Shown here: piece by piece, positions 13,192-41,142 of the stretch
Position numbering within the stretch: position 1 is the first letter of the stretch
Layout: each line of letters begins with the position of its first letter
NCBI GenBank assembly: GCA_031291075.1
Contig: JARLJS010000162.1
Location: 1-46,936 of the forward strand
DNA: 46,936 nucleotides
Direction: 5' to 3'
DNA from: Nevskia sp.
GTDB taxonomy: Bacteria > Pseudomonadota > Gammaproteobacteria > Nevskiales > Nevskiaceae
Made by a program: the position numbers and the translations under genes
The notes under the pieces: model-generated
Seen by the model: the letters and a program-made list of their open reading frames with translations, nothing else
The model's database searches: none
Told to the model about the DNA's origin: nothing

Positions 13192-13205
13192 TTGACGCAC
13201 ATCAA
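13192..13205 (+). promoter_or_regulatory. FNR/FixK-type box upstream of the receiver gene
   Basis: TTGAC-N4-ATCAA, both half-sites full, between the kinase stop and the receiver ATG at 13330. An AT-rich CAATAT lies 31-36 bp downstream of its centre, consistent with a class II site near -41.5. It suggests the receiver gene has its own low-oxygen promoter. Confidence 0.7.
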
Positions 13206-13329
13206 TGCCGTAGCGCGCGGGGAACGATCCAATATGGGCAAGACTCTTGACTTTCGAGGAAGGCGCAGCCTCTGACCGCATCCGCCGGAACCATCAACCT
13301 GACCCGCGCCGCTGCGAGCTGCAACCAGA

Positions 13330-13701
13330 ATGAACGACACAGTAATCCACATCGTGGACGATGACGAAGCGGTGCGTTCGGCCATGCGGCTGCTGCTGCG
13401 TTCGTATGGCTGGCGTTCGCGTGCCTTCGCCTCGGCGGAGGAATTCCTCGAGGCGCTCGTCGAGGAGGTTCCCGACTGCCTGCTGCTCGACCTCAACATG
13501 CCGGGCATGAACGGCGCCGAGCTGCTCGAAGTATTGGGGACGCGCCGGTCCGCGGTGCCGGTGATCGTCGTCACCGGCGAGGGTAGCTCCGCCCTGGCGG
13601 CGCGCGCCCGCGGCGCCGGGGCCGAGGCGGTGCTGGACAAGCCGTTCAGCGAGGAAGACCTGAAGGCTTCGATCGACCGGATCCTGGCCGACTCCCACTG
13701 A
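13330..13701 (+). CDS. FixJ-like single-domain response regulator
   Basis: A 123-residue receiver only. Acid pocket Asp10-Asp12 (HIVDDDEAVR), phosphoacceptor Asp54 (LLLDLNMPGMNG), Thr82 and Lys104 (DKPF) are all present. The sequence resembles the FixJ/NodW receiver group, but the LuxR-type DNA-binding domain of FixJ is absent: the frame ends naturally at SIDRILADSH. It follows the FixL-like kinase by 198 bp with its own FNR-type box. It may relay phosphate to another protein, act as a phosphate sink as FixT-like inhibitors do, or control by protein contact. Confidence 0.9.
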   Translation: MNDTVIHIVDDDEAVRSAMRLLLRSYGWRSRAFASAEEFLEALVEEVPDCLLLDLNMPGMNGAELLEVLGTRRSAVPVIVVTGEGSSALAARARGAGAEAVLDKPFSEEDLKASIDRILADSH

Positions 13702-13792
13702 GCCAAGCCAGGCGCGGCATACGCGCCCGCCCGGATGCGGCCTACGGTCTTCGCCCGTCCCGGACGGCTTTTCCCACGACGACTGCGTTCGG

Positions 13793-14491
13793 CTACGCGG
13801 CGATATCGTGGGAACGGCTGCGTGGATGCCGGCGCCGATCCAGCAGTTCCCGCACCTCGGCATCGCCGACCTCGGGGTAGTCCCGGTAGAACTGGCCCAC
13901 CGAGCGGAAATTGCGCAGCGTGTGCACGCAGACGAACTCGTCCGCCAGACCGCGCAGCGAGGCGGCGGCATCGGCCGGCGCCACCGGCACCGCGACCACG
14001 ATGGCGGCGGGGTTGAGCGTGCGCAACACCGCCACCGCCGCGTGCATCGAGGACCCGGTGGACAAGCCCTCGTCCACCAGGATCACGGTGCGGCGGCGCA
14101 CGTCCAGCGCCGGCCGGGTGTCGCGCAGGAGACGCTCCTGCCGGCGCAGTTCCTCCCGTTCCTCGGCGAAGGCGGCCTGCAGCCGGGCCTTGCTGACGCT
14201 GGTCATGCGCAGCACGTCGTCGTTCAGATGGAGGGCGCCGCCGGAGGCGATGGCACCCATGGTCAGATCCTTCTGATGCGGCACGGCGAGCCTGCGCACC
14301 AGCAGCAGGTCGAATTCCACGCCCAGCGCCTGCGCCACCTCGTGGCCCACCGGCACACCGCCGCGGGGCAGGGCCAGCACCAACACGTCCCGGCGCCCGC
14401 GGTATGCTTCCAGCAACCTGGCCAGCGCCCGGCCGGCGGCGGCGCGGTCGGTGAATACGGTATGGCGGCCTTCGGGGGGGGCCGTGCTCAT
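13793..14491 (-). CDS. Phosphoribosyltransferase family protein
   Basis: A 232-residue type I PRTase-fold protein. The N-terminal part has LVLALPRGGVPVGHEVAQAL (near 35-55) and the PRPP-binding loop is VILVDEGLSTGSSMHAA (near 130-146). The same family includes mycobacterial Rv0571c. Base specificity is not evident, and some members are only regulatory. The frame could be extended upstream, but the ATG at 14491 starts at the family position; the extension would run through the FNR box. It diverges from nrdJ and shares one FNR-type box with it, with TCATAT at the -10 position and a predicted transcript start about 20 bp before the ATG. Confidence 0.85.
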   Translation of the reverse strand: MSTAPPEGRHTVFTDRAAAGRALARLLEAYRGRRDVLVLALPRGGVPVGHEVAQALGVEFDLLLVRRLAVPHQKDLTMGAIASGGALHLNDDVLRMTSVSKARLQAAFAEEREELRRQERLLRDTRPALDVRRRTVILVDEGLSTGSSMHAAVAVLRTLNPAAIVVAVPVAPADAAASLRGLADEFVCVHTLRNFRSVGQFYRDYPEVGDAEVRELLDRRRHPRSRSHDIAA

Positions 14492-14546
14492 TTGCGCACC
14501 TCGTCGGTTCGTCGCCCAATATGAACGGCCGGGACGCGGTGCGGCA

Positions 14547-14560
14547 TTGACGTGCGTCAA
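14547..14560. promoter_or_regulatory. FNR-type box shared by the PRTase and nrdJ genes
   Basis: Perfect palindrome TTGAC-GTGC-GTCAA. On both sides, about 32 bp from its centre, there is a -10-like hexamer: TCATAT (14519-14524, minus) and GATGAT (14583-14588, plus). One dimer could therefore activate both divergent genes as a class II site. Confidence 0.75.
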
Positions 14561-14676
14561 TTTTCGTCGCCCGGTGTGCGCGGATGATTGGCCGCCGGCG
14601 ATCCCGCTCGGAAGCGGCCGGGTTCATGCGCGAAACCAGCGCAAGCTCGCGTGGTCAATCAGGATTTGGAGGCCGA

Positions 14677-17577
14677 ATGCTGCACAGGACACAGAGCGAA
14701 CAGGACCGCTATTACGACGGCATCCTGCGCGACAAGTACGCCAAGGGCGACGAGCGCAGCGTGATCGACGTATTCCGGCGCGTGGCCAAGGGTTTGGCCA
14801 GGGCCGAGGCCAAGGCCGAGCGCGGCCGCTGGGAGGAAGCGTTTTTCGAGGCGATGAACGGCGGTTTCTATCCCGCCGGCCGCATCATGAGCGCCGCCGG
14901 CACCGCCAGCGGCTCGACGCTCATCAACTCCTTCGTGCAGCCGGTGGGCGACTCGGTGTCAGGGGTGAGCGGCGGCAAGGTGGGCATCTACACCGCCCTG
15001 CTGCAGGCCGCCGAGACCATGCGCCGCGGTGGCGGCGTGGGCTATGACTTCTCCGCCATCCGGCCGCGCGGGGCGCGGGTGCAGAGTTCGCACAGCCGCG
15101 CCAGCGGCCCGGTGTCCTACATGCGCGTGTTCGACCGCTCCTGCGAGACGGTGGAATCCGCCGGCGCCCGCCGCGGCGCGCAGATGGGCGTGCTGCGGGT
15201 GGATCACCCGGACATCGAGCAGTTCGTGCGCGCCAAGGACATCCGTGACGTGGCGCGGCGCCTGCGCGAGGCCGGCTTCGACGGCCGCGAGCTGGACGAC
15301 ATGCTGCAGAAGCTGCGCACCCTGTCCAACTTCAACATCAGCGTGGCGGTGAGCGACGAGTTCATGCGCCTGAAGAAGAGCGGCGGCGAGATCGAGCTGT
15401 GCCACGCCGCCGAGCCGGACAAGGGCGAGTTCCCGGAAGCCTACCGCCGCGGCGATGGCCAGTGGGTGTACAAGCGGATCAAGGCCGCCGAGCTGTGGGA
15501 CCTGATCCTGCGCACCACCTACGAGACCGCCGATCCCGGCGTGGTGTTCATCGACCGCATGAACGCCGAGAACAATCTGGCCTACTGCGAGCGGATCGAG
15601 GCCACCAATCCCTGCGGCGAGCAGCCGCTGCCGGACTACGGCTGCTGCTGCCTCGGCTCGGTCAACCTGGCGCGCTTCGTGGTCAAGCCGTTCTCCACCG
15701 CGGCGCGGCTGGACTGGACGCGGCTGGAGCGCACCGCCGCCACCGCCGTGCGCATGCTCGACGACGTGCTCAGCGTCAGCCCCTGGCCGCTGCCGGAGCA
15801 GGAGCGCGAGGCGGCCTCCAAGCGCCGCATCGGCCTGGGCTTCACCGGCCTCGGCACGGCGCTGATGATGCTGCGCATCCGTTACGGCTCCGACGCCGCC
15901 ATCAAGCTGGCCACCAAGCTGGCGCAGACCCTGCGCGACAGCGCCTACCGCGCCTCGGTGGCGCTGGCCAAGGAGCGCGGCGCGTTCCCGCTGTTCGACG
16001 CCGTGCGCTACCTGGAAAGCCCATTCGTGCAGCGCCTGCCCAAGCCGCTGCGCGAGCAGATCGCCAAGCACGGCATCCGCAACAGTCACCTGCTGTCGAT
16101 TGCGCCTACCGGTACGATCTCGCTGGCCTTCGGCCGCAACGTCACCGGCGGCATCGAGCCGGCTTTCGCCTGGGAATACACCCGCCGCACCCGCGGCAAG
16201 ACCGGGCAGTCCGCCGAGTACCCGGTGCAGGACTACGGCTACCGCCTGTACCTGGAGATGCACGGCGGCAACGCCGCCAAGCTGCCGCCGTACTTCGCCA
16301 GCGCGCAGACGCTGCAGCCGCTCGACCACCTGCGCATCCAGGCGGCGGTGCAGCCCTACGTCGACTCCTCCATCTCCAAGACCGTCAACGTGCCGGTGGA
16401 GTGCGGCTTCGAGGAGTTCAAGGGCATCTACGACAAAGCCTACGAGTGGGGCTGCAAGGGCTGCACCACCTACCGGCCCAACGACGTCACCGGCGCCATT
16501 CTGAGCGTGGGCGGCTCCGCCGCCCCGGTGCGCACGCCGACGCTGGCGCTGGACCCTTCCGACCGCCGGCTGCAGCTCGACAAGCTGCCGGCGCCGCCGC
16601 TGGCATCCCTGAAGTGGCCGGGGCGCCCCGACTTCGCCCACGGCAACCCGGCCTGGACTTACATGGTCGATGCCGGGGCCGGCTGCCGCTTCGCAGTGTT
16701 CGTCGGCAACACCGAGAGCGGCGACCGCTTCCCGTTCGAGGTGTGGGTCAACGGCGCCGAACAGCCGCGCGGCCTGGGCGCCACCGCCAAGCTGTTGTCG
16801 ATGGACCTGCGCTCGCGCGACCGCGCCTGGATCCGGCTCAAGCTGGAAACCATGATCAAGACCCACGGCAACCCGGTGACGGTGGCGTTGCCGCCTTCCG
16901 GCAAGAAGACGGTGATGGCCAGTCCCACCGCGGTGCTGGCGCGGCTGGTGTTATACCGTTGCAAGGAGTTGGGCCTGTTCGAGAAGATCGACGCCACCCC
17001 GGTGGTGGACGCTCTCATCAGCGCCGAGGAGCCGGCCACCGGCACCGAGGGCACCATGTCCTGGACGGTGGACGTGAAGAACCCCGCCACCGGCGAGGAC
17101 TGCTCGCTGGTGCTGAAGGAGCTGCAGATGCCGGACGGCCAGCGCCGCCCGTACGCGATGGGCCTCTACGGCGAGTACCCGCGCGATCTCGATGGCCTGT
17201 GCGGCCTGCTGTCGCTCGACATGCGCGTGATCGACCCCGCCTGGATCGGTGCCAAGCTGAAGAAGCTGCTGAGCTTCCCCGAGACCGGCGCCAGCTTCCT
17301 GGCGCGCATCCCGGGCCAGGACAAGGGCCGGATCTATCCGTCCACCGTCTCCTACCTGGCCGCGCTGATGCTGCACCGCTACCAGATGCTGCGCATCCTC
17401 GGCCCCGACTGCCTGCCGCTGCAGCCGCTGGGCGTGCTGCAGAGCCCGGCCGACAGCGAAGGCCAACAGGAAGCCGTACTGGGCGCGCCCTGCCCGGACT
17501 GCGGCGCCCACGCCGTGGTCAAGCGCGAAGGCTGCCAGGCCTGCACCAGCTGCGGCTGGATTGGGAATTGTGGGTGA
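14677..17577 (+). CDS. nrdJ: Class II (adenosylcobalamin) ribonucleotide reductase
   Basis: A 966-residue B12-dependent reductase that makes dNTP precursors with or without oxygen. The catalytic barrel has NPCGEQ (thiyl-forming Cys313), a Cys run 323-325 before LGSVNLARF (second redox Cys), and SIAPTGTISLAFG (phosphate loop, near 474). The first redox cysteine, expected in the LINCFV block, is Ser85 here (LINSFV, codon TCC at 14929). Two TSCPD-like repeats follow (about 660-770 and 785-905), then a C-terminal CPDCG...CxxCG tail that re-reduces the active site. ATG 14677 has GGAGG 5 bp upstream. It is divergent from the PRTase gene with a shared FNR-type box and ends in a perfect hairpin. No cobalamin riboswitch is visible in the leader. 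Confidence 0.95.
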   Translation: MLHRTQSEQDRYYDGILRDKYAKGDERSVIDVFRRVAKGLARAEAKAERGRWEEAFFEAMNGGFYPAGRIMSAAGTASGSTLINSFVQPVGDSVSGVSGGKVGIYTALLQAAETMRRGGGVGYDFSAIRPRGARVQSSHSRASGPVSYMRVFDRSCETVESAGARRGAQMGVLRVDHPDIEQFVRAKDIRDVARRLREAGFDGRELDDMLQKLRTLSNFNISVAVSDEFMRLKKSGGEIELCHAAEPDKGEFPEAYRRGDGQWVYKRIKAAELWDLILRTTYETADPGVVFIDRMNAENNLAYCERIEATNPCGEQPLPDYGCCCLGSVNLARFVVKPFSTAARLDWTRLERTAATAVRMLDDVLSVSPWPLPEQEREAASKRRIGLGFTGLGTALMMLRIRYGSDAAIKLATKLAQTLRDSAYRASVALAKERGAFPLFDAVRYLESPFVQRLPKPLREQIAKHGIRNSHLLSIAPTGTISLAFGRNVTGGIEPAFAWEYTRRTRGKTGQSAEYPVQDYGYRLYLEMHGGNAAKLPPYFASAQTLQPLDHLRIQAAVQPYVDSSISKTVNVPVECGFEEFKGIYDKAYEWGCKGCTTYRPNDVTGAILSVGGSAAPVRTPTLALDPSDRRLQLDKLPAPPLASLKWPGRPDFAHGNPAWTYMVDAGAGCRFAVFVGNTESGDRFPFEVWVNGAEQPRGLGATAKLLSMDLRSRDRAWIRLKLETMIKTHGNPVTVALPPSGKKTVMASPTAVLARLVLYRCKELGLFEKIDATPVVDALISAEEPATGTEGTMSWTVDVKNPATGEDCSLVLKELQMPDGQRRPYAMGLYGEYPRDLDGLCGLLSLDMRVIDPAWIGAKLKKLLSFPETGASFLARIPGQDKGRIYPSTVSYLAALMLHRYQMLRILGPDCLPLQPLGVLQSPADSEGQQEAVLGAPCPDCGAHAVVKREGCQACTSCGWIGNCG

Positions 17578-17722: not shown

Positions 17723-18046
17723 CTACTGCCTGAGCACCCACAACACCAGGGCCCGCGCCTCCTCGTCGGTCAGGGGCTTGCCCAGCATCCTGGCCGACGG
17801 CATGGCGATGTCGCCCCAATGCTGGGTGCCGCCGTTCTGCAGCTTCCTGGCCAGCATGCCGACGTCGTCCTTGGTGTACTTCTTCGCCAGGTCCTTGAAC
17901 GCCGGCGCAATGCCGGTGGTGTCCACCGCATGACAGGTGAAGCACTGCCTGGACTTGGCCAGCGCGGCGGGGTCGGGCGAGGCGGCCTGTGGGGCCGTGA
18001 CGGCGGTGCTCAGGATGGTGGCCGCCAGCAGGGTCAGGGGGCGCAT
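17723..18046 (-). CDS. Class I c-type cytochrome (c551/c552-like), periplasmic
   Basis: A 107-residue monohaem cytochrome. A signal peptide (MRPLTLLAATILSTAVTAPQ) is followed by haem site CFTCH (about 34-38) and the distal methionine in DIAMPSARML. The mature size of about 85 residues fits small electron carriers that feed terminal oxidases, nitrite reductases or peroxidases. ATG 18046 has GAGGAGAT upstream; the in-frame upstream extension is inside hpf. It lies 10 bp downstream of hpf, so the two are one operon under the FNR-type box at 18473. No oxidase or reductase lies nearby, so the partner is unknown. Confidence 0.9.
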   Translation of the reverse strand: MRPLTLLAATILSTAVTAPQAASPDPAALAKSRQCFTCHAVDTTGIAPAFKDLAKKYTKDDVGMLARKLQNGGTQHWGDIAMPSARMLGKPLTDEEARALVLWVLRQ

Positions 18047-18056
18047 GTGGATCTCC

Positions 18057-18404
18057 TCAGGGGGCGTGGGATCCGTCGTGGCGGGCCTCTTCACGCGCCT
18101 TGTTCATGCGGGTCTCGAGCTGGCGCTCCGCCGCATCGAAGGCATCGCCGATCGCCACGTAGAGATCCTCGTGTGGTTTGTGGCCGCGGTTCACTGCGAT
18201 CTCCGCGCCGGGCACGGTGAGGCGCACGTGCACCTGGTAGGCGTTGCCCTGGTGATGATGGTGGTGCGGCGCCTCCAGCACCACGTGGCACCCGACCAAG
18301 CGCGGGCTCATGCGCTGCAGCCTGGTGACGCGCTTGCGAACGGCCTCGTCGATGGCGGCGGAGGATTGGACGTTGCGGTAATCGATTTCGAGCGGTAGCT
18401 GCAT
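18057..18404 (-). CDS. hpf: Short ribosome hibernation factor (HPF/RaiA family)
   Basis: A 115-residue protein with the beta-alpha-beta-beta-beta-alpha HPF/YfiA fold signature: QLPLEIDYRNVQSSAAIDEA at the start, a His run HHHHH near 47-51, then YQVHVRLTVPGAEIAVNR and EDLYVAIGDAFDAAERQLE. It lacks the long C-terminal dimerisation domain, so it belongs to the short class that stalls ribosomes in the decoding centre. ATG 18404 has AGGAG upstream. The FNR-type box centred at 18479.5 places a start about 34 bp before the ATG, with CATACT at -10. Its pairing with cytochrome c suggests low-oxygen stationary expression. Confidence 0.88.
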   Translation of the reverse strand: MQLPLEIDYRNVQSSAAIDEAVRKRVTRLQRMSPRLVGCHVVLEAPHHHHHQGNAYQVHVRLTVPGAEIAVNRGHKPHEDLYVAIGDAFDAAERQLETRMNKAREEARHDGSHAP

Positions 18405-18472: not shown

Positions 18473-18486
18473 TTGATTCAGATCAA
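18473..18486. promoter_or_regulatory. FNR-type box shared by hpf-cytochrome and DUF6763 genes
   Basis: TTGAT-TCAG-ATCAA, the full E. coli-type FNR consensus. CATACT (18446-18451, minus) and TATCGT (18509-18514, plus) sit 31-32 bp from the centre on either side, so both divergent transcripts fit class II activation. Confidence 0.78.
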
Positions 18487-18577
18487 GGCCGCGCAGCACC
18501 TGCCGTCCTATCGTGAACTGGCGCGGCGGGTAGCTCAGACGCCGGCGCAACGCCATCCACCCATGGGAGGAGCAGCA

Positions 18578-18922
18578 ATGAGACAGAGACCGAACTCCGA
18601 ATTGCCACCGGTGGTCGGCGGCTGGTACCGGCGCGTGGACCGGCCGCAGCCGTTCCAGGTGGTGGCCTTCGATCCGGAGGCCCGCACCGTGGACATCGAA
18701 TACTTCGACGGTACCGTGGACGAATGGCCGAGCGAGCACTGGTATAGCCTGGAGCTGGAGCCCTGCGCCGCGCCGCAGGACTGCTCCGGCGCGTTCGATG
18801 ACATCGAGCCGGACGAGTTGTCGCCCAACGACGGCAACCTGCCGATTGGCGAGGCGCCGGGGTCGCTGGAGAGCCTGCTTGACCAGGCCGAGAAAAGCGC
18901 GCCGGATCTCGAAGTGGACTAG
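18578..18922 (+). CDS. DUF6763 family small acidic protein
   Basis: A 114-residue protein without signal or membrane segment. The N-terminal part (VVGGWYRRVDRPQPFQVVAF and YFDGTVDEWPSEHWYSLELE) matches the small DUF6763 family of gammaproteobacteria, probably an SH3/Tudor-like beta fold by its Trp/Tyr pattern. The C-terminal half is very acidic (DDIEPDELSP, DQAEKSAPDLEVD). Start ATG 18578 has GGGAGGAGC just upstream. Function is unknown; the divergent FNR-type promoter shared with hpf suggests a role in the same low-oxygen response. Confidence 0.75.
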   Translation: MRQRPNSELPPVVGGWYRRVDRPQPFQVVAFDPEARTVDIEYFDGTVDEWPSEHWYSLELEPCAAPQDCSGAFDDIEPDELSPNDGNLPIGEAPGSLESLLDQAEKSAPDLEVD

Positions 18923-19170: not shown

Positions 19171-24075
<4,905 letters not shown>

Positions 24076-24079
<4 letters not shown>

Positions 24080-25008
24080 GCCTGTCGGCTCCCGATCCCG
24101 CCGGTCCGAACGGCATCCGTCCGCGCCTGCTGATCGTGGATGACCAGCCGGTCAACATCCAGGTCCTGTACCAGCTCTTCGCGCGCGACCACGACGTGTT
24201 CATGGCCACCAGCGGACGCCAGGCGATCGAGGTGTGCCGCCGCGAGCTGCCGGACCTGGTGCTGCTCGACATCATGATGTCGGACCTCGACGGCCTCGAG
24301 GTGTGCCGCGCACTCAAGGGCGAGGCGGCGACGCGCGACATCCCGGTGATCTTCGTCACCGGCCAGGAGTCGCCCGAGGAGGAGACGCGCGGCCTCGCCG
24401 CCGGGGCGGTCGATTTCATCTCCAAGCCGATCAACCCTGCCGTGGTGCAGGCCCGCGTGCACACCCACCTGACGCTCAAGGCCCAGGCCGACCGCCTGCG
24501 CGACCTGGCCTTCGTCGACGGCCTCACCGGCGTGGCCAACCGGCGCCGCTTCGACGAACGGCTGGCGCAGGAATGGCGCGCCTGCGCCCGCACGCGTGAG
24601 CCGCTGGCGGTGGCGCTGGTCGACGTGGACCACTTCAAGCAGTTCAACGATTACTACGGCCACCAGGCGGGGGATGCCTGCCTGCAGACCGTCGCCACGC
24701 AGCTCGTCAAGGTGCTGCGGCGCCCGCGCGACTTTGTCGCCCGCTATGGCGGCGAGGAATTTGTCTGCCTGCTGTCCGGCGTGCAGGCCAGCCGCGCCGG
24801 CCACGCGGCCGAGCTGCTGCGCGCCAGCGTGGAGGCCGCCGCCGTGCCGCACCAGCGCTCGGACTGCGCCCAGGTGGTGACGGCGAGCATCGGGCTGGCC
24901 GTCGCCGTGCCCACGGCCGACACCAGCCCGGCGGAACTCCTCGCCGCGGCCGACGCACGCCTGTACCAGGCCAAGCAGGCCGGGAGAAACCGTTCCTGCG
25001 TCGGGTGA
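24076..25008 (+). CDS. Response regulator diguanylate cyclase (REC-GGDEF)
   Basis: A 310-residue protein. The receiver domain (about 14-130) has LLIVDDQPVNIQ, phosphoacceptor Asp in LVLLDIMMSDLDG and a Lys in SKPINP. The GGDEF domain (about 145-305) carries the active RYGGEEFVCLL motif, with an RPRD I-site five residues before it, so product inhibition by c-di-GMP is expected. VALVDVDHFKQFNDYYGH is the metal/substrate block. The start overlaps the kinase stop (ATGA), indicating translational coupling; the kinase Hpt is the likely phosphodonor. It is a WspR/PleD-like output that converts the multi-PAS input into c-di-GMP. Confidence 0.93.
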
Positions 25009-27737: not shown

Positions 27738-27751
27738 TTGATCCCGGTCAA
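27738..27751 (-). promoter_or_regulatory. FNR-type box upstream of ppsA
   Basis: TTGAT-CCCG-GTCAA. GAAACT on the minus strand (27710-27715) lies exactly 32 bp from the centre, the same hexamer at the same distance as at the 41129 box. The gene on the other side ends here, so only ppsA is served. Confidence 0.75.
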
Positions 27752-29356: not shown

Positions 29357-29958
29357 CGCCAACCGCCGTCGCGCGGGAGCGCCGCGCGATCCTGGTCCCG
29401 GCGGCGCCAGTAGCGCAGCAGCGCCACGCCGCCGACCAGCCCGCCCAGGTGGGCGAAGTGGGCGATGCCCGGCATGGTGCCGGTGACACCGGCGAACAGC
29501 TCCAGCAGCGCGTAGAGAAACACGAACACCCGCGCCGGCATCGGGATCGGCGGGAACAACAGCATCACCTTGCGGTTCGGGTACAGCACCGCGAACGCCG
29601 CCAGCACGCCGAACACCGCGCCGGACGCGCCCAGGGTGGGGACCTTGTCCGGCAGCAGGCTGGTCACCAGCAACTGCGTGGCCGCCGCGGTCGCCAGGCT
29701 CGCGGAATACAGCGCGAGGAAGCGGCCGGATCCCAGCGCCCGTTCCACCGGCCGCCCGAACATCCACAGCGCGAACATGTTGGTGGCCAGGTGCGCCACG
29801 TTGCCGTGGAGGAAGGCGCTGGTGAGCGGCTGCCAGAGGTGGAAGCCGGCGCCTAGCGGCCACAGCACCAGCGGTGTCAGGAACGTATTGCCGAGCTGGG
29901 TTTCCAGCACGAACATGGCGAGGTTCGCCGCCAGCAGGGCGTAGGTCAGCGGGGTCAT
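29353..29958 (-). CDS. Rhomboid family intramembrane serine protease
   Basis: A 201-residue six-helix protein. The catalytic Ser is in GASGAVFG (near 122-129), His in IAHFAHLGGLVGG (near 168), and the oxyanion/L1 motif is LHGNVAHLATNMFALW (near 50-65). No extra N-terminal domain is seen. It cleaves membrane proteins within the bilayer; the substrate is unknown. It heads an operon with an ABC exporter through 4-bp overlaps, so the protease may mature or quality-control the exporter or its cargo. No FNR-type box lies upstream; a REP-like element does. Confidence 0.92.
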   Translation of the reverse strand: MTPLTYALLAANLAMFVLETQLGNTFLTPLVLWPLGAGFHLWQPLTSAFLHGNVAHLATNMFALWMFGRPVERALGSGRFLALYSASLATAAATQLLVTSLLPDKVPTLGASGAVFGVLAAFAVLYPNRKVMLLFPPIPMPARVFVFLYALLELFAGVTGTMPGIAHFAHLGGLVGGVALLRYWRRRDQDRAALPRDGGWR

Positions 29959-30048
29959 GGTCTTTGAGCGATGGGATCGGCCATCGGCAACGGCGGCCGG
30001 CAGTAGTCATAGCATAACCGCTGCGGGGCACGGGATTGAGCAGCACAT

Positions 30049-32766: not shown

Positions 32767-32807
32767 AGTATAGAGGGGCGGTACCTGCCGGCATTGACCG
32801 GCGTCAA
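32767..32807 (-). promoter_or_regulatory. FNR-type promoter of the GspE-like gene
   Basis: Perfect palindrome TTGAC-CGGC-GTCAA (32794-32807) with TATACT at 32767-32772, 31 bp from the centre. The predicted start near 32759-32760 leaves a leader of only 3-4 nt before the ATG at 32756, and no ribosome-binding site is seen, so the mRNA may be leaderless. Confidence 0.75.
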
Positions 32808-32813
32808 GCCGCT

Positions 32814-34442
32814 TCAGCGGCCCAGCAGGGTCCGCAGCTGCGCCAGCAGGGCGTCGAACGGCGGCGCGCGGGTGGTATCCACGGTCAGCGTGTGGGCGCG
32901 CTCGGCGTCGTCGAGGGGGTCGTTGTGACCGAGCTGGTGGCGCAGCACCGCGACGTCGGCCTCGGAGGCGTCTTTGCCCTCGCGGGCGCGCTCGACCAGG
33001 CGCCGCTCCAGCTCTGCGGGCGGCGCCTGGCAATCCACGATCGCCATCGGCACGTCGAGCTGCTGGGCCAGGGCGGCAAAGTGGCGTCGCGCGGCCTGGT
33101 GGAGGAAGGTGGCGTCGATGATGGCGGTTTCGCCGCCCTCGATGAGGGCGCGCGCCAGGTCCACCAGGTGGGAATAGACCTGGCGGCCCGCGTCCACGGT
33201 GTAGATGCCGGCGCCGACGCCGGAGCCGCTGCGCCCTTGCGGAGCGATGCCGTGCATGCGCTTGCGCTCCACGTCCGAGCGGACGCGGATCGCCGGCAGG
33301 CGTTCGGCGAGCTCGCCGCTGTAGCGGGTCTTGCCGGAGCCGGCCAGGCCGTGCATCAGGATCAGGCCCGGGCGCGCCCGGCGGGTCCAGTAGAGCGCCT
33401 GGCGCACGTAGTCGATGCACTCGTCCAGATGCTGGCGCCGGCGCTTGTCCACCGCCAGTGACTGCCAGCGGATCATGGCCACCTTGGCGCGTACCAGGGC
33501 GCGGTAGACCGCGTAGTAGTGCAGGGTGCGCACGCCGGCATAGTCGCCGCCGGCTTCCAGGTAGCCGTTGAGGAAGGCGTAGCCGAGGCCGGGATGGCCG
33601 CGGTGCGCCAGGTCCATCAGCAGGAACGCGGTGTCGCTGACGGTGTCGATCCAGCGTAGTCCCGGGCTGAATTCGATGCAGTCGAACGGCACGATGCCTT
33701 GATCGAGGCTTACCAGGTTGGCGAGGTGCAGGTCGCCGTGGCACTCGCGGACGCAACCGGCAAGCCGGCGCGCGTCGAACACCGGCGCCAGCTCGGTGCC
33801 CCGCCGCGTGACCCACTGGCCGATCTGCTCCAGCCGGCTCCGCAGCGCGTCGTCCCCGGTTCCTTGCAGCAGGTCATGCAGGCTGTCGCGCAGGGGTGTC
33901 TGCACCTGGCTCGGCAGGCCGTATTCCGTACCGGCGGCCGCCGACGGCAGCGTGGCATGGAGCGCGGCCAGCGAGCGGCCGAACTGCTCCATGTCGCGCG
34001 GCGACAAACCGCCGGCGTCGAGCACGCGGTCGAGCTGCCGATCTGCCGGGAACTGGCGCATCTTCACCGCGTATTCGAGCGGCACGCCTTCGCCGCCCAC
34101 CAGCGGGTGCTCGGCGCTGCCGGTGATGGGCACCACGTCCAGGTACAGCTCCGGGGCGAAGCGGCGGTTGAGCCGCAGCTCCTCCCGGCAGGCGTCGAGT
34201 CGCAGCTGCAGCGAGGAGAAATCGAGGAACGGCAGCTTGACCGGCTTCTTCACCTTGTAGGCATAGGCTCCGGTCAGCAGCACCCAGGAGATGTGGGTCT
34301 CCGCCAGCCGCACGCGGTGGGCGCCGTGGCTGTACGCGGACGGGCGCAGCAGCGCCTGGATCAGCGGCGGCAGGTGGATCTTGCGCAGGCGCTGTTCCCG
34401 CCGCCGTCCTTCCTGCTGGTCGGAATGGCGGATGGGTGTCAT
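32814..34442 (-). CDS. APH-like plus P-loop ATPase fusion protein (Rv2004c type)
   Basis: A 542-residue protein of two parts. The N-terminal half resembles aminoglycoside phosphotransferase/kinase folds, with YAYKVKKPVKLPFLDFS (nucleotide lysine region) and the catalytic loop CHGDLHLANLVSLD followed by FDCIEFSPGLRWIDTVSDTAF (near 232-260). The C-terminal half is an AAA/zeta-toxin-like P-loop kinase with MHGLAGSGKTRYSGELAE (near 365-382). The same architecture occurs in mycobacterial Rv2004c, a DosR-regulon member; the phosphorylated substrate is unknown. The start is ATG 34442 or GTG 34454. It lies 24 bp after ftsH, so it should share the ftsH FNR-type promoter. Confidence 0.85.
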   Translation of the reverse strand: MTPIRHSDQQEGRRREQRLRKIHLPPLIQALLRPSAYSHGAHRVRLAETHISWVLLTGAYAYKVKKPVKLPFLDFSSLQLRLDACREELRLNRRFAPELYLDVVPITGSAEHPLVGGEGVPLEYAVKMRQFPADRQLDRVLDAGGLSPRDMEQFGRSLAALHATLPSAAAGTEYGLPSQVQTPLRDSLHDLLQGTGDDALRSRLEQIGQWVTRRGTELAPVFDARRLAGCVRECHGDLHLANLVSLDQGIVPFDCIEFSPGLRWIDTVSDTAFLLMDLAHRGHPGLGYAFLNGYLEAGGDYAGVRTLHYYAVYRALVRAKVAMIRWQSLAVDKRRRQHLDECIDYVRQALYWTRRARPGLILMHGLAGSGKTRYSGELAERLPAIRVRSDVERKRMHGIAPQGRSGSGVGAGIYTVDAGRQVYSHLVDLARALIEGGETAIIDATFLHQAARRHFAALAQQLDVPMAIVDCQAPPAELERRLVERAREGKDASEADVAVLRHQLGHNDPLDDAERAHTLTVDTTRAPPFDALLAQLRTLLGR

Positions 34443-34466
34443 GGTCGCGCCCACGGTCCTGCGGCC

Positions 34467-36335
<1,869 letters not shown>

Positions 36336-36434: not shown

Positions 36435-36448
36435 TTGACCTGGGTCAA
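36435..36448 (+). promoter_or_regulatory. FNR-type box upstream of the cytochrome c gene
   Basis: Perfect palindrome TTGAC-CTGG-GTCAA. TAACCT (36472-36477) lies about 33 bp downstream of the centre, giving a start near 36484 and a leader of about 30 nt. Confidence 0.75.
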
Positions 36449-36512
36449 TCGCCGGCGGCCGCCGGCTCGGCTAACCTTGGCCTGCCTCCCCTGGCCCGCA
36501 ACAAGGATTGCC

Positions 36513-37301
36513 ATGCCCAAGTTCAAACCGCCGATGGCCGCGTTGTGCCTGTTCCTGCTCGCGGGCGCCGCAGTGGGCACGGACACGCCCGCGGCGGCCG
36601 CACCCAGACAGGACGCGGCGGACCGTCAGCTCACGGACCTGCAGCAGCGCCTGCGCGAACTCATCGGCCAACTCGACGAGATGGCGGAACTGCATGACGC
36701 CGCCGGCCGCCGCAGCCTGATGCACCGCCATTGGCACGCCCTGCAGGACTACATGCGGGAGGTGCAGAAGACGCTGCCGCCGCAGCCCGCCGGCAGCGAA
36801 CAGATGCACCTGGCCTTCGGCTCGGCGGCAGGCTGCGGCCTCGCCGCCGACATGGACGCGGACCGCTACGTCTCGCAGACGCGCGACCTGTTGTGGAGCA
36901 TGCGCGAGCAGCTCGCGGCGGTGCGCCAGGCCGGCAGCGCGGCCGAGCGGCAGCGCCGGCTGCAGGCGCACGCAGTCGACGCCTATCACGGCATGCAGGC
37001 GATTCGCGGCCTGGGCTGGATGTACGGCAAGACAGCGCCGAGCGGCGAAAACCAGGGTCCGGTGCCCGATGCGGCCTCCACCGGCGCCTACCTGGTCCAC
37101 CAGTACTGCGGCCAGTGTCACGCGCCGCCGCCGGCGGTATTGCACAGCGCCGCTGAGTGGTCTGGCGCGGCGGCCCGCATGCAGGGGCACATGAACCTGG
37201 CCAATGCCCAGAATCCGCACGAGGTGCAGGTGCCGAGCCAGCGCGAGATGACCGCGATCCAGACCTACCTGGAGGCGAACGCCTGCGAAACGGTCGATTG
37301 A
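36513..37301 (+). CDS. Secreted c-type cytochrome-like protein
   Basis: A 262-residue protein with a signal peptide (MAALCLFLLAGAAVGT). A helical, charged middle (about 35-190) contains repeated Gln/Leu/Arg heptads (QLTDLQQRLRELIGQLDEM). The C-terminal part has one haem site CGQCH (near 207-211) and candidate axial methionines in ARMQGHMNLAN. The long N-terminal helical domain is unusual for a monohaem cytochrome and may dock a partner. ATG 36513 has AAGGA upstream. It has its own FNR-type box and is divergent from ftsH. No neighbouring reductase shows which electron path it serves. Confidence 0.8.
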   Translation: MPKFKPPMAALCLFLLAGAAVGTDTPAAAAPRQDAADRQLTDLQQRLRELIGQLDEMAELHDAAGRRSLMHRHWHALQDYMREVQKTLPPQPAGSEQMHLAFGSAAGCGLAADMDADRYVSQTRDLLWSMREQLAAVRQAGSAAERQRRLQAHAVDAYHGMQAIRGLGWMYGKTAPSGENQGPVPDAASTGAYLVHQYCGQCHAPPPAVLHSAAEWSGAAARMQGHMNLANAQNPHEVQVPSQREMTAIQTYLEANACETVD

Positions 37302-37321
37302 GCCAGCCGGGCGGCGCAAGG

Positions 37322-37354
37322 CAAAAATAGCCGCCGGCGCTCCGCCCCGGCGGC
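37322..37354 (-). terminator. Rho-independent terminator of the hsp20 gene
   Basis: On the minus strand, GCCGCCGG and CCGGCGGC (37330-37354) form an 8-bp GC stem followed by a T-rich run (TATTTTTGC). It lies just past the Hsp20 stop and between convergent genes. Confidence 0.75.
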
Positions 37355-37364
37355 CGCAACGCGC

Positions 37365-37787
37365 TTATTGCACTTTGATTTGGGTGGTCGAGGACCTCTT
37401 GACCTCGGTTTTCGGCAGGTGGACGGTCAGCACGCCGTCATTGGACTCGGCGGTGATGGCGTCCTGCTGCACGTTCTCCGGCAGGCTGAAGCTGCGGCTG
37501 TAGGCGCCGTAGGTGCGCTCGACCCGATGGACGCGCGCGTCCTTCTCCTCGTGCTCCGACCTGCGTTCGCCCGAGATGGTAAGCACGCCATTCTCGACGC
37601 TGACCTTCACCTCTTCCTTCTTCACGCCCGGAAGCTCGGCCTTGACCGTGTATTCCTTGGGCGTTTCGGCGATGTCCACGGCCGGAGCCCAGGCGTCGCC
37701 TGCGCGGTTGGCAACGGCGCCACCGCGCTGGAAGCGGTTGAGAAGCTCATCCATCTCGCGAAACGGATTCCATTGAACCAGAGCCAT
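37365..37787 (-). CDS. Small heat-shock protein, Hsp20/alpha-crystallin family
   Basis: A 140-residue ATP-independent holdase chaperone. The start MALVQWNPFREMDELLNRFQ is typical of class A bacterial Hsp20. The alpha-crystallin domain (about 38-130) has PAVDIAETPKEYTVKAELPG and GVLTISGERRSE, and the C-terminal arm contains GVLTVHLPK and the I-x-V anchor (QIKVQ). ATG 37787 has GGAG upstream; a longer frame to 37871 runs into the FNR-type box. The gene is single and ends in a hairpin terminator. Hsp20 under hypoxic control recalls HspX of the DosR regulon. Confidence 0.93.
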   Translation of the reverse strand: MALVQWNPFREMDELLNRFQRGGAVANRAGDAWAPAVDIAETPKEYTVKAELPGVKKEEVKVSVENGVLTISGERRSEHEEKDARVHRVERTYGAYSRSFSLPENVQQDAITAESNDGVLTVHLPKTEVKRSSTTQIKVQ

Positions 37788-37857
37788 GATGTCGTCTCCA
37801 TCTGATCGCCGGCGGACTGCGGCAGACCAATGGTGAAACCCGCGCCGGAACTTGGCA

Positions 37858-37871
37858 TTGACCTGGATCAT
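37858..37871 (-). promoter_or_regulatory. FNR-type box upstream of hsp20 (one mismatch)
   Basis: TTGAC-CTGG-ATCAT, last base off consensus, centred 77 bp before the Hsp20 ATG. The -10 region (CACCAT or CCATTG) is weak. It is one of a pair with the site at 37904. Confidence 0.55.
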
Positions 37872-37903
37872 GTGCCCCGTTTCAAGTGCCGCCGGCGCCG
37901 CTT

Positions 37904-37917
37904 TTGACTCAGATCAA
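37904..37917 (+). promoter_or_regulatory. FNR-type box upstream of the DUF6455-acyltransferase operon
   Basis: TTGAC-TCAG-ATCAA, both half-sites full. TTAATA (37941-37946) lies about 33 bp downstream of the centre, giving a start near 37952 and a leader of about 28 nt. Confidence 0.75.
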
Positions 37918-37979
37918 TGAGCGACGGAGCGCGCCTGCGCTTAATAGCAGGTGACACGAGAACCTGTTGAGAGATCGAG

Positions 37980-38381
37980 ATGAACGCCAGCCTGTTGCAA
38001 ACCGTTGACCTGTACGTCGCCGTGCTCCTCGCCGCATTCGGCATGAGCTTCCTGACCCTGACCATTGTCGTGCTGCTGGACAGCGACGCCGTGCGGGAGC
38101 TGGCGCATGCCTGGGAGTCGAAGCAGCTCGACCGCGTCCGCATGGGCAGGATGCTGGCCCTGCGCGGCATCGACCGGCGTATCTACCTGCGCGGCACGCC
38201 GATGTCCGAAGTGCGCCACCAGGTCGCCAGGTGCCGTAACTGCAGCCAGCAGAGCCGCTGCGACGCCGACCTCGCGGCGGGTACGCCCACCCGTGCCGGC
38301 TACTGCCCCAATGCCAGGGCCCTCGACACGCTGGCCGTGCTGCACCGGCATGGTAGCGCGCAGACTCTGCAGCCGCGCTGA
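37980..38381 (+). CDS. Membrane-anchored Cys-rich protein, DUF6455-like
   Basis: A 133-residue protein. One N-terminal membrane helix (VDLYVAVLLAAFGMSFLTLTIVVLL, about 9-33) precedes a basic cytosolic region. It then has CRNCSQQSRC (C-x2-C-x6-C) and a further Cys in YCPNARAL. This resembles DUF6455 proteins, in which the cysteines may bind a metal or Fe-S cluster; no ligand has been shown here. ATG 37980 is preceded by GAGA. It is the first gene of a two-gene unit with the wax-ester/DGAT gene 11 bp downstream, under an FNR-type box. A redox-sensing or electron-carrier role is a guess. Confidence 0.7.
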   Translation: MNASLLQTVDLYVAVLLAAFGMSFLTLTIVVLLDSDAVRELAHAWESKQLDRVRMGRMLALRGIDRRIYLRGTPMSEVRHQVARCRNCSQQSRCDADLAAGTPTRAGYCPNARALDTLAVLHRHGSAQTLQPR

Positions 38382-38392
38382 GCGGAGCCTCC

Positions 38393-39850
38393 GTGACCAA
38401 CGCGGCGGGGTCCGGCAGGAAAGCGCGCGCGCCGCGGCCCGGACGTGAGCGGCCGGCGCTGGCGGCCGGCGAGTTGATGCATTCCATCGACCGGGCCTGG
38501 CTGGAAATGGACCGGCCGCGGAATCCGATGGTGGTGAGCGGGCTGTTTCAGGTCGACGGCAATGTCACGCCTCTGCGTTTCAAGCGCACCCTGGCGGAAC
38601 GCCTGCTGCGCTTTCCCCGTTTCAGCCAGCGACCTGAACGGCACCACTCGCCGCCGTTGTGGGTGACCGAAACCGAGCTTGACCTCGACTACCATATCCA
38701 CATCCGCCGGCTGCCGGCCGCCGGCTTCGAGCCGGCCCTGCGCAAGGCGGTGTCGGCTGAACTGACCGGCGAGTTGGATCCCTGCCGCCCGCTGTGGCGC
38801 GCGATGATCTTCACCCGCAAGGGCCGCCCGGTGATGGTCATGTTCCGCGCCCATCACGCGGTGGCGGACGGCATCGCCCTGCTGCGCGTGCTGCTGGCCT
38901 GCACCGACGCCGCGATGCGCCGGCGCGGCCCGGCCGTCCCGGCCGCCACCGGGCACCCGCGCCACGACGGGCCGCTGGCGCCGGTGATCGATCGCCTGGA
39001 GGGTGCCAACGCCGCGCTGGAGGTGCTGCACGACCTGGTGGCCGAAGACCTCAAGCACCCGGGCGAGTTGATCAGGCACCTGCGGCAGGGACGCGACGCG
39101 CTCGGCGCCATCGCCCACATCCTGCAACTGCCCAACGACAACCCGCCCGAACTGCGCTTGCCGCTGACCGGCAAGCGCTCGCTGGTGTGGGCCAGCGACT
39201 TCCGCTCCACCGCCATCCGCAGGGCGGCCCATGCGCGCGGCGTGAAGATCAACGACCTGCTGATGGCCGCGCTGGCCGGCGCGTTCGGCAGCTATCTGCG
39301 CGGCGAAGGCGTGGCGGTGGCACCCGAGCAGAGTCTGCGCGTCTCGATCCCGGTCAACCTGCGCGACGACCATTTGCATGGCGAGCTGGGCAATTGCTTC
39401 GGGCTGGTGCTGCTCGATCTGCCGGTCGGCATGACCGACGCCGCGGCGCGCTTGGCTCTGGTGGCGGAACGCATGAACCGGCTCAAGACCTCGGGCGAAG
39501 CGCGCGCCACGCTGCTGGCGCTGGCGGCGGTCGGGCATCTGCCGATGGCGCTGGAGAAGGGCCTGGTGCAGCACGTGGCGGACAAATCCTGCGCCGTGGT
39601 ATCCAACCTGCGCGGGCCGCAGCGCTCGGTGCGCATCGGCGGAGCGAGGTTGAGCAACCTGGTGTTCTGGCCGCCGCAGTCCGGGCATATCGGCATCGGC
39701 GTCAGCCTGATCAGCTATGCCGGCGCGCTCAGCGTCGGCATCTCCGCCGACACCGGCGTGGTCAAGCAGCCGCAGCGACTGCTGGACGAACTGGTCAAGG
39801 CGTTGCGCGAGCTTGGCTGCAAGGGCTCGTTGCGCCGAGCGGGCGCCTGA
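38393..39850 (+). CDS. Wax ester synthase/diacylglycerol acyltransferase (WS/DGAT)
   Basis: A 485-residue enzyme that joins acyl-CoA to fatty alcohol or diacylglycerol, making storage wax esters or triacylglycerol. The catalytic HHAVADG motif is at 154-160, PLWRAMI near 133-139, and the C-terminal SNLRGP block near 404. The GTG at 38393 has GGAG upstream; an internal ATG at residue 29 (LMHSIDRAWLEM) aligns with the usual family start, leaving a basic 28-residue extension. It sits directly after the DUF6455 gene and shares its FNR-type promoter. Mycobacterial Tgs1, a DosR-regulon TAG synthase, is in the same family, suggesting lipid storage when respiration stops. Confidence 0.92.
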   Translation: MTNAAGSGRKARAPRPGRERPALAAGELMHSIDRAWLEMDRPRNPMVVSGLFQVDGNVTPLRFKRTLAERLLRFPRFSQRPERHHSPPLWVTETELDLDYHIHIRRLPAAGFEPALRKAVSAELTGELDPCRPLWRAMIFTRKGRPVMVMFRAHHAVADGIALLRVLLACTDAAMRRRGPAVPAATGHPRHDGPLAPVIDRLEGANAALEVLHDLVAEDLKHPGELIRHLRQGRDALGAIAHILQLPNDNPPELRLPLTGKRSLVWASDFRSTAIRRAAHARGVKINDLLMAALAGAFGSYLRGEGVAVAPEQSLRVSIPVNLRDDHLHGELGNCFGLVLLDLPVGMTDAAARLALVAERMNRLKTSGEARATLLALAAVGHLPMALEKGLVQHVADKSCAVVSNLRGPQRSVRIGGARLSNLVFWPPQSGHIGIGVSLISYAGALSVGISADTGVVKQPQRLLDELVKALRELGCKGSLRRAGA

Positions 39851-39857
39851 GGCGCGT

Positions 39858-40769
39858 TCAGGTTTCCCAGAAGGGTTCGAGCCGGCGGAAGCTGTGCCAG
39901 GCGTGGCGCAGTTTGCGCTGCTTGCCCGATCCCGCGCCGTGGCGGTCCACTGCGGCGACACGGTGCTTGCCGAGCCGGCGCTTGAGCTGTGAGGCCAGCG
40001 CGCGTCCCGAGGCGGCATCCTGGATCACCCCGAGCCGCCCCTGCAGCTCGCTCAGCGCAGTGAGGTAGGGTTGCACCCGGCGGTGCGCATACAGCGGTTC
40101 CAGCATCTCGCTGGCGTAGCGCAGCCGTTTCAGGCTCATGCGCAGGCGGTGCAGCTCCTTGCGCCGCAGCCCGCGCAGGTGGCGGCCGCGCTGGCGCACC
40201 TCCCGCAGCCGCTGGCGCAGGACGACACTGGCAGCGGGACGCAGGCTGTCGCCGGCGTGGTGGGAAGTCCGCGGCGGGAGCACGGACGCGGCCCCGGGGT
40301 GACCGTGCATGGCCCGCAGGCGGGTCAGCAGCGCGCCGCAGCGGTGCGAGTGGAAGACCGCCCGTGCCTGCTCCAGCGCCTGCGCCCGGCAGGCGGCTGC
40401 CGCTGCCGCGCTGGTGCCGTGGCGGGGGAAACGCGGCGTCAGGTTCTGCTCGGCCAGGAACACGTCCCATTCGCGGGTTGCCGCCAAGCCGTGCATCAGC
40501 CATTTCAACTCGTTGCCCAGCCGCTGGGCGCGGTGGTCCGGCAGGAACCCGGCGAACGCGCTCAGCGCGGTGCGCAGGCGGGTGATGTCGATGCGAAGCT
40601 GGTGGATCGCGTCGGCGCTTCCGCTGCGGTCCGCGGTTTCCACGCCGGCCACCACCTGCGCCGCCAGGGCAGCGAAGATCTGCCGGAACAGGGTGCCGGC
40701 GGCGGGCGGCCGCGGCTGACGGCCCGCGGCGCGGGGATGCCGCGCCGCGGCACCGGCCCTGGCGTCCAT
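39858..40769 (-). CDS. CHAD domain protein
   Basis: A 303-residue helical protein with the conserved histidine-alpha-helical (CHAD) pattern: AIHQLRIDITRLRTALSAF (about 54-72) and LHRLRMSLKRLRYASEML (about 206-223), rich in His, Arg and Lys. CHAD proteins bind polyphosphate and locate to polyphosphate granules in bacteria studied. No CYTH triphosphatase domain is attached. No clear ribosome-binding site precedes ATG 40769. The gene lies 28 bp after a small coiled-coil gene and should share its FNR-type promoter; it converges on the WS/DGAT gene with a 7-bp gap. Confidence 0.88.
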   Translation of the reverse strand: MDARAGAAARHPRAAGRQPRPPAAGTLFRQIFAALAAQVVAGVETADRSGSADAIHQLRIDITRLRTALSAFAGFLPDHRAQRLGNELKWLMHGLAATREWDVFLAEQNLTPRFPRHGTSAAAAAACRAQALEQARAVFHSHRCGALLTRLRAMHGHPGAASVLPPRTSHHAGDSLRPAASVVLRQRLREVRQRGRHLRGLRRKELHRLRMSLKRLRYASEMLEPLYAHRRVQPYLTALSELQGRLGVIQDAASGRALASQLKRRLGKHRVAAVDRHGAGSGKQRKLRHAWHSFRRLEPFWET

Positions 40770-40797
40770 ATCCGAACGCCGGTGGCTTGCGGCTGGA

Positions 40798-41067
40798 TCA
40801 GCTCTTGAGCGCGTTGCGCATATCGGTGTAGCTGGTACGCAGCGCGTTGAGCAGCTTGCTGGCGGCTGCCTCGACCTCCTTGCGGCTGTCCTCGGCGGCG
40901 ACCTCGGCGCGGCCGATGTGCTCGCGCAGGGTGGCGAAGTCGGCTTCCAGTTTGTTCCAGCGGTCTTTCAGCTCGGCTTTCAGCAACGAGGTGTGCAGCG
41001 CCAACTCGTCGCGGAGCAGGCAAAGGGCTTTGTAGTCGTTGCTCAGGGCGGTGGAGAGACGTGACAT
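40798..41067 (-). CDS. Small coiled-coil protein, phasin-like in character
   Basis: An 89-residue protein, almost entirely helical with heptads (LLRDELALHTSLLKAELKDR, then WNKLEADFATLREHIGRAEV), no signal or membrane segment. I recognise no named family; length and amphipathic helices recall phasins or apolipoprotein-like granule proteins. ATG 41067 has GGAG 7 bp upstream; the in-frame extension to 41142 is the FNR box. It heads a two-gene unit with the CHAD protein. Placement between polyphosphate- and lipid-linked genes makes a granule-surface role plausible but unproven. Confidence 0.75.
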   Translation of the reverse strand: MSRLSTALSNDYKALCLLRDELALHTSLLKAELKDRWNKLEADFATLREHIGRAEVAAEDSRKEVEAAASKLLNALRTSYTDMRNALKS

Positions 41068-41128
41068 GACAGGACTCCATTGGTTGGGGGAGGTGCTGTC
41101 AGTTTCGTCGCCGGACAGGACCGCCGCC

Positions 41129-41142
41129 TTGATCTGCGTCAA
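41129..41142 (-). promoter_or_regulatory. FNR-type box upstream of the coiled-coil/CHAD operon
   Basis: TTGAT-CTGC-GTCAA. GAAACT on the minus strand (41101-41106) is 32 bp from the centre, identical in sequence and distance to the ppsA promoter. The predicted start lies about 27 bp before ATG 41067. Confidence 0.75.

Follow-up and report, generated by a model that had tools for sequence, protein, structure and literature searches.

What is a group of genes that recalls the dormancy regulon of mycobacteria doing on a contig of Nevskia sp., a gammaproteobacterium of the Nevskiaceae, and what might control it? The DNA analysed (the window) is an entire contig of 46,936 bases (C40) in an assembly of 5.65 Mb and 302 contigs. 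According to an original prediction, its part between 13192 and 41142 mirrors the gene content of the mycobacterial DosR regulon under a different operator, and would be a proteobacterial hypoxic-survival island that was assembled convergently or spread between phyla. The analysis supports the predicted island: the locus is very probably a low-oxygen survival island, switched on by an iron-sulphur regulator of the FNR/ANR type. The likeness to DosR appears to be functional.

The candidate operators carry most of the argument. An exact TTGAY-N4-RTCAA box (TTGAYNNNNRTCAA) occurs at eight places in the window, all within 13192-41142, where 0.02 are expected by shuffling; the predicted clustering of FNR-like boxes with the named genes is therefore borne out. 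The genome as a whole contains 77 boxes, as compared to 4 for a reversed control pattern, and at this density 0.64 would be expected on the contig (Poisson P 4e-7, uncorrected for the selection of this window). The eight boxes define 16 directions, 12 of which face a gene and were selected by gene position. In six of these 12 directions, belonging to six of the eight boxes, the distance between the box centre and a start codon is 62 to 76 bp, and several of these starts have a stretch that resembles a ribosome-binding site; in the remaining directions the likely start is found at 44 to 132 bp. Across the 12 directions, agreement with a TATAAT-like hexamer is greatest 22 bp beyond the box, with a mean best -10 match of 3.58 out of 6 versus 2.19 at random places, a value that none of 20,000 resamples reached. 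This is exactly the spacing that results from a 14-bp box centred at -41.5 and a -10 element starting at -12, and thus the spacing of a class II FNR promoter. The 22-bp peak recurs in 60 further directions from the same genome and in 92 from Nevskiaceae relatives, while the peak is at 21 bp in 148 directions of other proteobacteria; these are descriptive counts, from loci picked for holding boxes and with both directions pooled. Taken together, the boxes look like genuine promoter elements.

The gene families that had been named beforehand are present, as established by Pfam and NCBIfam searches of the open reading frames (Pribosyltran, HSP20, WS_DGAT, S30AE, PpsA, FtsH, Cytochrom_C, CHAD, DUF6455 and DUF6763 among them). 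Box 1 (13192..13205) precedes a gene for a single-domain response regulator (13330..13701, plus strand), which resembles the receiver of FixJ and has no output domain. Box 2 (14547..14560) is common to a phosphoribosyltransferase gene (PRTase; 13793..14491, minus strand, likely start ATG 14491) and the gene for NrdJ, a B12-dependent class II ribonucleotide reductase of the NrdJ/Z type (14677..17577, plus strand, start ATG 14677 or 14626 in a frame open from 14584; TIGR02504, 583 bits). Box 3 (18473..18486) lies between the divergent genes for the ribosome hibernation factor HPF/YfiA (18057..18404, minus strand, likely start ATG 18404) and a DUF6763 protein (18563..18922, plus strand, start 18563 or 18578), and a small cytochrome c is encoded at 17723..18094 on the minus strand. 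Box 4 (27738..27751) stands before the gene for phosphoenolpyruvate synthase, PpsA (25289..27676, minus strand, likely start ATG 27676), and box 5 (32794..32807) before that for a GspE/PilB-like ATPase with an MshEN domain (30177..32756, minus strand). Box 6 (36435..36448) separates the divergent genes for the protease FtsH (34467..36335, minus strand, likely start ATG 36335) and for a second cytochrome c-like protein (36513..37301, plus strand, likely start ATG 36513), which has a single CxxCH motif (CGQCH) and no Pfam match. Box 7 (37904..37917) is flanked by the gene for the small heat-shock protein Hsp20 (37365..37787, minus strand, likely start ATG 37787 in a frame open from 37871) and, in the other direction, by those for a DUF6455 protein (37980..38381, plus strand) and a WS/DGAT wax ester/triacylglycerol synthase (38393..39850, plus strand), the frame of which opens 12 bp 3' of DUF6455. 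Finally, box 8 (41129..41142) precedes the gene for a small coiled-coil-like protein (40798..41067, minus strand). A homologue of the latter (44%) is encoded on contig C116 (L368) of the same genome, directly behind an FNR box at 1040.

Other genes between these boxes have no box of their own. They encode a multi-PAS hybrid histidine kinase with two receivers and an Hpt domain (19214..24079, plus strand), a response regulator with a GGDEF diguanylate cyclase domain (24076..25008, plus strand), an ABC-2 transporter (27813..30046, minus strand; permease at 27813-28616, ATPase in the frame 28613-30046), a fusion of an APH-like half and an AAA_33 ATPase (APH-AAA; 32814..34454, minus strand) and a CHAD-domain protein (39858..40769, minus strand). 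The membership of the kinase and of the transporter in the island is uncertain. In the APH-AAA protein, which is presumably comparable to Rv2004c, the APH-like N-terminal half scores 21.0 bits, below the cut-off of 23.2. Intact motifs are found in FtsH (HExxH and Walker A), APH-AAA (Walker A), PpsA (phosphohistidine) and both cytochromes (CxxCH); like HHxxxDG in WS/DGAT enzymes, these are signatures of the respective functions. The receiver-only regulator, the hybrid kinase with its GGDEF partner, the ABC-2 transporter and the GspE/PilB-like ATPase are additions to the gene list of the original prediction. The GspE/PilB-like gene is behind an FNR box and the GGDEF regulator is about 5 kb away; MshEN domains bind cyclic diguanylate (c-di-GMP), and no secretion or pilus partner for the ATPase is among the families found in the window. 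Upstream of 10.5 kb, the scanned genes appear to be unrelated (glycosidases, an SbmA/BacA-like transporter, an S15 peptidase). Close to the contig start, an inverted repeat of 35 nt with 89% complementarity (549-583 / 680-714) may be a repeat or the remnant of an insertion element.

Which regulator could act on the boxes? The genome encodes, to judge by sequence alone, an FNR-type regulator with a cysteine cluster. This protein, on contig C194, matches solved FNR-type regulators with E values of about 1e-28, for example 5cvr from Aliivibrio fischeri. It has a C-x2-C-x4-C motif near its presumed start and a further cysteine that aligns to one in 5cvr, and its gene has a box upstream. The search, with PF00325, gave two matches in the genome, and would miss proteins without that short motif; the second match is a Crp-family protein on contig C93 without N-terminal cysteine cluster. 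A second oxygen input seems to be present as well. The original prediction had placed a haem-PAS kinase among the genes of 13192-41142. A FixL-like PAS histidine kinase indeed exists, but is encoded just outside that interval, at 11644..13131 on the plus strand. Over the PAS domain it can be aligned to structures of FixL (E 3e-36), and the EHD and IIGIGR segments are conserved, so that the proximal histidine and distal-side arginine of a haem PAS, presumably with the same roles in the haem pocket as in FixL, are combined with HisKA and HATPase domains as in the FixL family. Elsewhere in the genome, contig C205 (L369) encodes a complete FixL-FixJ pair and contig C284 (L367) a kinase 70% identical to that of the window, together with a receiver-only partner. 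On account of these pairs, the receiver-only regulator behind box 1 is probably a feedback element of a FixL branch.

These same observations bear on another reading, in which the boxes are FixK- or DNR-type sites that serve microaerobic respiration, denitrification or the response to NO instead of FNR-dependent survival. The boxes of FNR, FixK and DNR are alike (for FixK2, by the consensus in the parts of the literature compared), the C93 protein is without the N-terminal cysteine cluster, and the genome has a FixLJ pair and FixL-like kinases. On the other hand, it is the cysteine-cluster protein among the two PF00325 matches that has the box upstream, and no denitrification family is found among the Pfam matches within the window. 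As a replacement for FNR-dependent survival, such control appears doubtful; the two could, however, hold together.

Is the association of these genes with boxes peculiar to one contig? Within the same genome, 20 open reading frames adjoining other boxes were scanned, five of which are without Pfam match. The others include GroEL, a nitroreductase, DNA polymerase X-like, erythromycin esterase-like, LonB-like protease and DksA/TraR proteins, as well as a deoxyhypusine synthase-like protein, a fatty acid desaturase, a universal stress protein (Usp), BON and host-attachment-like proteins. Five of these families (GroEL, nitroreductase, Usp, BON and host-attachment-like) also belong to the FixK2 and lxa gene sets discussed below, which supports the existence of a regulon. 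A second PRTase is encoded on contig C189, which has three boxes. In a species of the same genus, a stretch of 40 kb has nine boxes and encodes the oxidase subunits FixO and COX1, FixG, a metal P-type ATPase, HemN and a hemerythrin, along with NrdJ, DUF6455, APH-AAA and FtsH; the latter four are thus tied to the classical core set of FNR.

A wider comparison was based on PRTase genes. The 18 best-scoring places, each with 20 kb of DNA, come from 17 other genomes of the phylum (54 of 398 genomes had matches, and a second place in G672 was left out); they were compared with 20 controls, of which 18 are stretches of the same contigs and two are from G291. The PRTase neighbourhoods contain 33 boxes, with at least one in 10 of 18, and the controls two boxes, in two of 20 (Fisher P 0.0045). 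A relative of Hsp20, HPF, FtsH, PpsA or APH-AAA is present in nine of the 18 neighbourhoods and in none of the 20 controls (P 3e-4), although the five APH-AAA matches are partial (about 270-315 residues, 30-32%) and one of the nine positives rests solely on such a match. The predicted co-occurrence of the families with boxes is therefore also seen elsewhere, even if eight of the 18 neighbourhoods are boxless. One of them, in another class, combines nine boxes with FtsH, PRTase, HPF, Hsp20, PpsA, Usp and GroEL. Furthermore, on a 3.17-Mb replicon of Burkholderia stagnalis, 15 boxes within 50 kb accompany genes for FtsH, NrdJ, cytochrome c, Hsp20 and APH-AAA; the NrdJ there is 41% identical to that of the window, and its gene has a box about 118 bp upstream. 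Comparable clusters of Usp, alcohol dehydrogenase and APH-AAA are found on replicons of Variovorax, Paraburkholderia and Leisingera; those of Variovorax and Paraburkholderia have boxes, whereas the stretch from Leisingera is boxless.

The WS/DGAT gene deserves separate consideration, as it apparently represents the new part of the island. Its product has the HHxxxDG active site and both WS/DGAT domains, and scores 295.6 bits with TIGR02946, below the cut-off of 309.95. WS/DGAT genes as such are present in 58 of 58 family genomes examined. A window-type subfamily was defined as the copies 43-55% identical to that of the window, and its 19 neighbourhoods (including that of the window's own paralogue on contig C74; one neighbourhood is just 4.3 kb) contain 20 boxes in 363,617 bp, with a box in eight of 19. 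Around 18 distant paralogues, one box was found in 360,000 bp, and window families were limited to four ABC ATPase matches and one match to the GGDEF regulator at 36%. Several island families adjoin subfamily members: FtsH (71%) in G284, the FixL-like kinase (64%) in G308, the hybrid kinase and GGDEF regulator (58-63%) in G723, APH-AAA (51%) and DUF6763 (61%) in G720, and the small coiled-coil-like protein (41-50%) in G308 and G720, with weaker neighbours in CHAD (33%, G734), HPF (27%, G723) and Hsp20 (28%, G308). In G721 and G729, ppsA (68-69%) has a box about 170 bp upstream and is followed 74 bp further on by the WS/DGAT gene, so that both form a pair behind one box. In the genome of the window, three of eight WS/DGAT copies checked (of nine matches) have a box upstream; the window copy does so only via DUF6455, and the paralogues at C28:167298 and C88:8773 have an exact box some 165-169 bp upstream of where the alignment starts. 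The notion that every WS/DGAT gene is near a box was rejected, given these three of eight and the 11 boxless regions of the window type. What seems to travel with the FNR island in some Nevskiaceae is this subfamily. We lean, by a small degree, towards the view that neutral-lipid synthesis in these bacteria has come under FNR, the subfamily being carried in and regulated with the survival island, in some species as the ppsA-WS/DGAT pair. This would be an independent proteobacterial counterpart of the lipid dormancy linked to DosR and tgs1, in which stored acyl chains may act as a sink for electrons and carbon when respiration stops. Among the matches listed, by their titles and the starts of their abstracts, no literature was found that joins FNR to wax esters or WS/DGAT in bacteria; one paper, on M. 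smegmatis, contains both terms (PMC8440910). Likewise, the matches listed for Nevskiaceae and wax ester include nothing that joins FNR to WS/DGAT.

Several observations weigh against a selected FNR-dependent island. Island content and order differ among relatives, and gene order can be read only inside the window contig because the assembly consists of 302 contigs. The 11 boxless regions among the 19 of the window-type WS/DGAT have already been mentioned; moreover, these regions are linked by descent and hence not independent, seven of them being from one genus (g232), and of six other species of the same genus with a subfamily copy, only G284 has an island partner beyond kinase and GGDEF matches. 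The genes without a box of their own, to which the first cytochrome c also belongs, depend on assumed operons or may not belong to the island. The -10 element of FtsH is weak at the expected place (2/6). The cysteine spacing of the C194 protein includes x4, where that of E. coli FNR has x5. No Usp, the hallmark of both lxa and DosR, was found among the window frames scanned; nine Usp-matching stretches lie on other contigs of the genome, and a box precedes at least one of these (on C103). In the light of this variability, the locus could be a loose set of unrelated stress genes with a common regulator and no selected linkage, all the more as NrdJ neighbourhoods are mostly unrelated. Such an arrangement seems improbable, however, in view of the 20 boxes versus one around subfamily and paralogue WS/DGAT genes, and of the partner families in half of the PRTase regions and none of the controls.

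How far does the likeness to DosR extend? The juxtaposition of NrdJ and PRTase had been taken as an echo of Rv0570/Rv0571c. This part did not hold: in a survey of the best 80 of 579 NrdJ loci, several of them on short contigs (kinase, receiver, ABC ATPase and GspE matches were not counted), no locus has a PRTase, nor do the neighbourhoods of seven close Nevskiaceae NrdJs, and a conserved DosR-like NrdJ-PRTase unit was rejected. Hsp20 and HPF are together near NrdJ in one of the 80 loci, and a box is within 400 bp upstream in eight. NrdJ relatives also occur on four large plasmids of Pseudomonas, Sulfuricystis, Hydrogenophaga and Burkholderia (L160, L161, L162, L164), where they sit amid replication or transfer genes, without boxes; a plasmid-borne origin was considered and set aside. 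As a separate observation, some Nevskiaceae NrdJ orthologues have an in-frame LAGLIDADG insertion (L113:15026-16018 in G309, L115:14013-15134 in G284, and also G298 and G291), which the window NrdJ does not have. It sits at the active-site motif NPC/GEQ, the junction being read in G309 and indicated by a split match only in G298 and G291. Matches to Intein_splicing are below the curated cut-off, and the insertion is most likely an intein.

The idea that the island is a dormancy cassette transferred from or shared with actinobacteria, with a swapped operator, was addressed with trees of APH-AAA, WS/DGAT and PRTase. Actinobacteria are represented in them by plasmid copies from Rhodococcus, Nocardia, Embleya, Streptomyces and Mycobacteriaceae, M. 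tuberculosis not being included; rows below 200 residues (L009, L010, L090 and L093, with internal stops) and duplicate PRTase rows were dropped. Shared families are the starting point for this idea, namely NrdJ, PRTase, Hsp20, APH-AAA, WS/DGAT (as in tgs1 of the DosR regulon) and HPF, and partly similar clusters exist on Rhodococcus plasmids. The APH-AAA tree nevertheless sets four rows from Actinobacteria apart as a clade (100/100), and the family is too widespread, in 130 of 274 genomes of the class, to point to DosR. The window WS/DGAT pairs with its own paralogue (100/100), and three more rows from gammaproteobacteria belong to the same group (100/98), with a very long-branched Rhodococcus row next outside (95/84); the identity of the window protein to three copies from Mycobacteriales is 27-28%, as against 43-55% within the Nevskiaceae subfamily. 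Beside the PRTase of the window stand two copies from a single gammaproteobacterial genome (94/75), and one row from Rhodococcus also falls in this poorly resolved part of the tree. The DosR-type palindrome is not in excess in the window (two matches at one place versus 3.6 expected), in agreement with the prediction of a different operator. Thus the tree positions disfavour transfer from Actinobacteria for APH-AAA and WS/DGAT, and with it the suggested spread between phyla; a shared cassette is highly improbable. The likeness is most simply explained as functional, by convergence.

For the low-oxygen survival island itself, the following course of events can be envisaged. When oxygen falls, the C194 regulator would gain its iron-sulphur cluster, bind the boxes, whose centres would be some 41.5 bp upstream of the transcription starts, and activate the eight boxed promoter regions by a class II mechanism. 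The products would then keep the cell alive without growth: HPF parking ribosomes, Hsp20 and FtsH guarding protein quality, and B12-dependent NrdJ supplying deoxynucleotides without oxygen. PpsA might redirect pyruvate, the cytochromes c could serve low-oxygen respiration, and WS/DGAT may lay down acyl chains and reducing power in the form of neutral lipid. The second oxygen input would come from haem kinases of the FixL type, with the receiver-only regulator as feedback or phosphate sink. If this is true, two unrelated systems of oxygen sensing, that of DosR in Actinobacteria and that of FNR in Proteobacteria, have acquired a largely common toolkit for outlasting the loss of oxygen, comprising ribosome parking, chaperones, oxygen-independent synthesis of deoxynucleotides and storage lipid. 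The shared toolkit would point to functions that are essential for hypoxic dormancy, and the island would serve as a model of how proteobacteria store lipid under hypoxia. The results also suggest that box density and a few marker families may suffice to find such islands.

From the parts of the literature compared, FNR/ANR-dependent low-oxygen islands are already known, and the one in the window is a well-supported example, the regulator, FixL inputs and promoter architecture of which are legible in the sequence. The regulon of M. tuberculosis controlled by DosR (DevR) shares several families and the same presumed use, under another regulator and operator. The convergent Rv0570/Rv0571c genes differ from the divergent NrdJ and PRTase genes of the window, the APH-AAA and WS/DGAT of which show no special relationship to the copies from Actinobacteria in the trees. 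The comparison also drew on PMC8509486 and PMC3759415. Alphaproteobacterial FNR/FixK regulons (Dufour 2010) are predicted to include Hsp20, cytochrome c, FixL, Usp and cbb3 oxidase, with no WS/DGAT, NrdJ or PRTase in the parts compared (PMC2908626). In Bradyrhizobium diazoefficiens, the cluster bll4634-blr4659 contains hspC2, Usp, nitroreductase, DnaJ, ppsA and groEL5 genes with FixK2 boxes, several of them induced by microoxia (PMC9104804, PMC6515984). Apart from DnaJ, these families are behind or beside boxes in the window or elsewhere in its genome; no gene named NrdJ, WS/DGAT or HPF is among the rows compared for the FixK2 cluster. FixK2 itself is not known to have the cysteine cluster of FNR. 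Another close parallel is the Burkholderia lxa locus of 50 genes, for which a regulator of the Anr/FixK type was proposed and which was itself likened to the DosR regulon in the Discussion of a published study, so that this comparison is already in print (PMC6127331). In B. cenocepacia H111, a strain without lxa, a double mutant in anr fails to survive anoxia (PMC9104464). The B. stagnalis stretch with its 15 boxes is lxa-like by content. As in lxa, low-oxygen survival genes are physically clustered in the window, a small heat-shock protein included, and stress, redox and metabolic genes are combined with FNR boxes. Unlike lxa, which has six Usp genes, the window has none among the frames scanned; compared with lxa as described, it adds WS/DGAT, HPF, FixL and the GGDEF branch.

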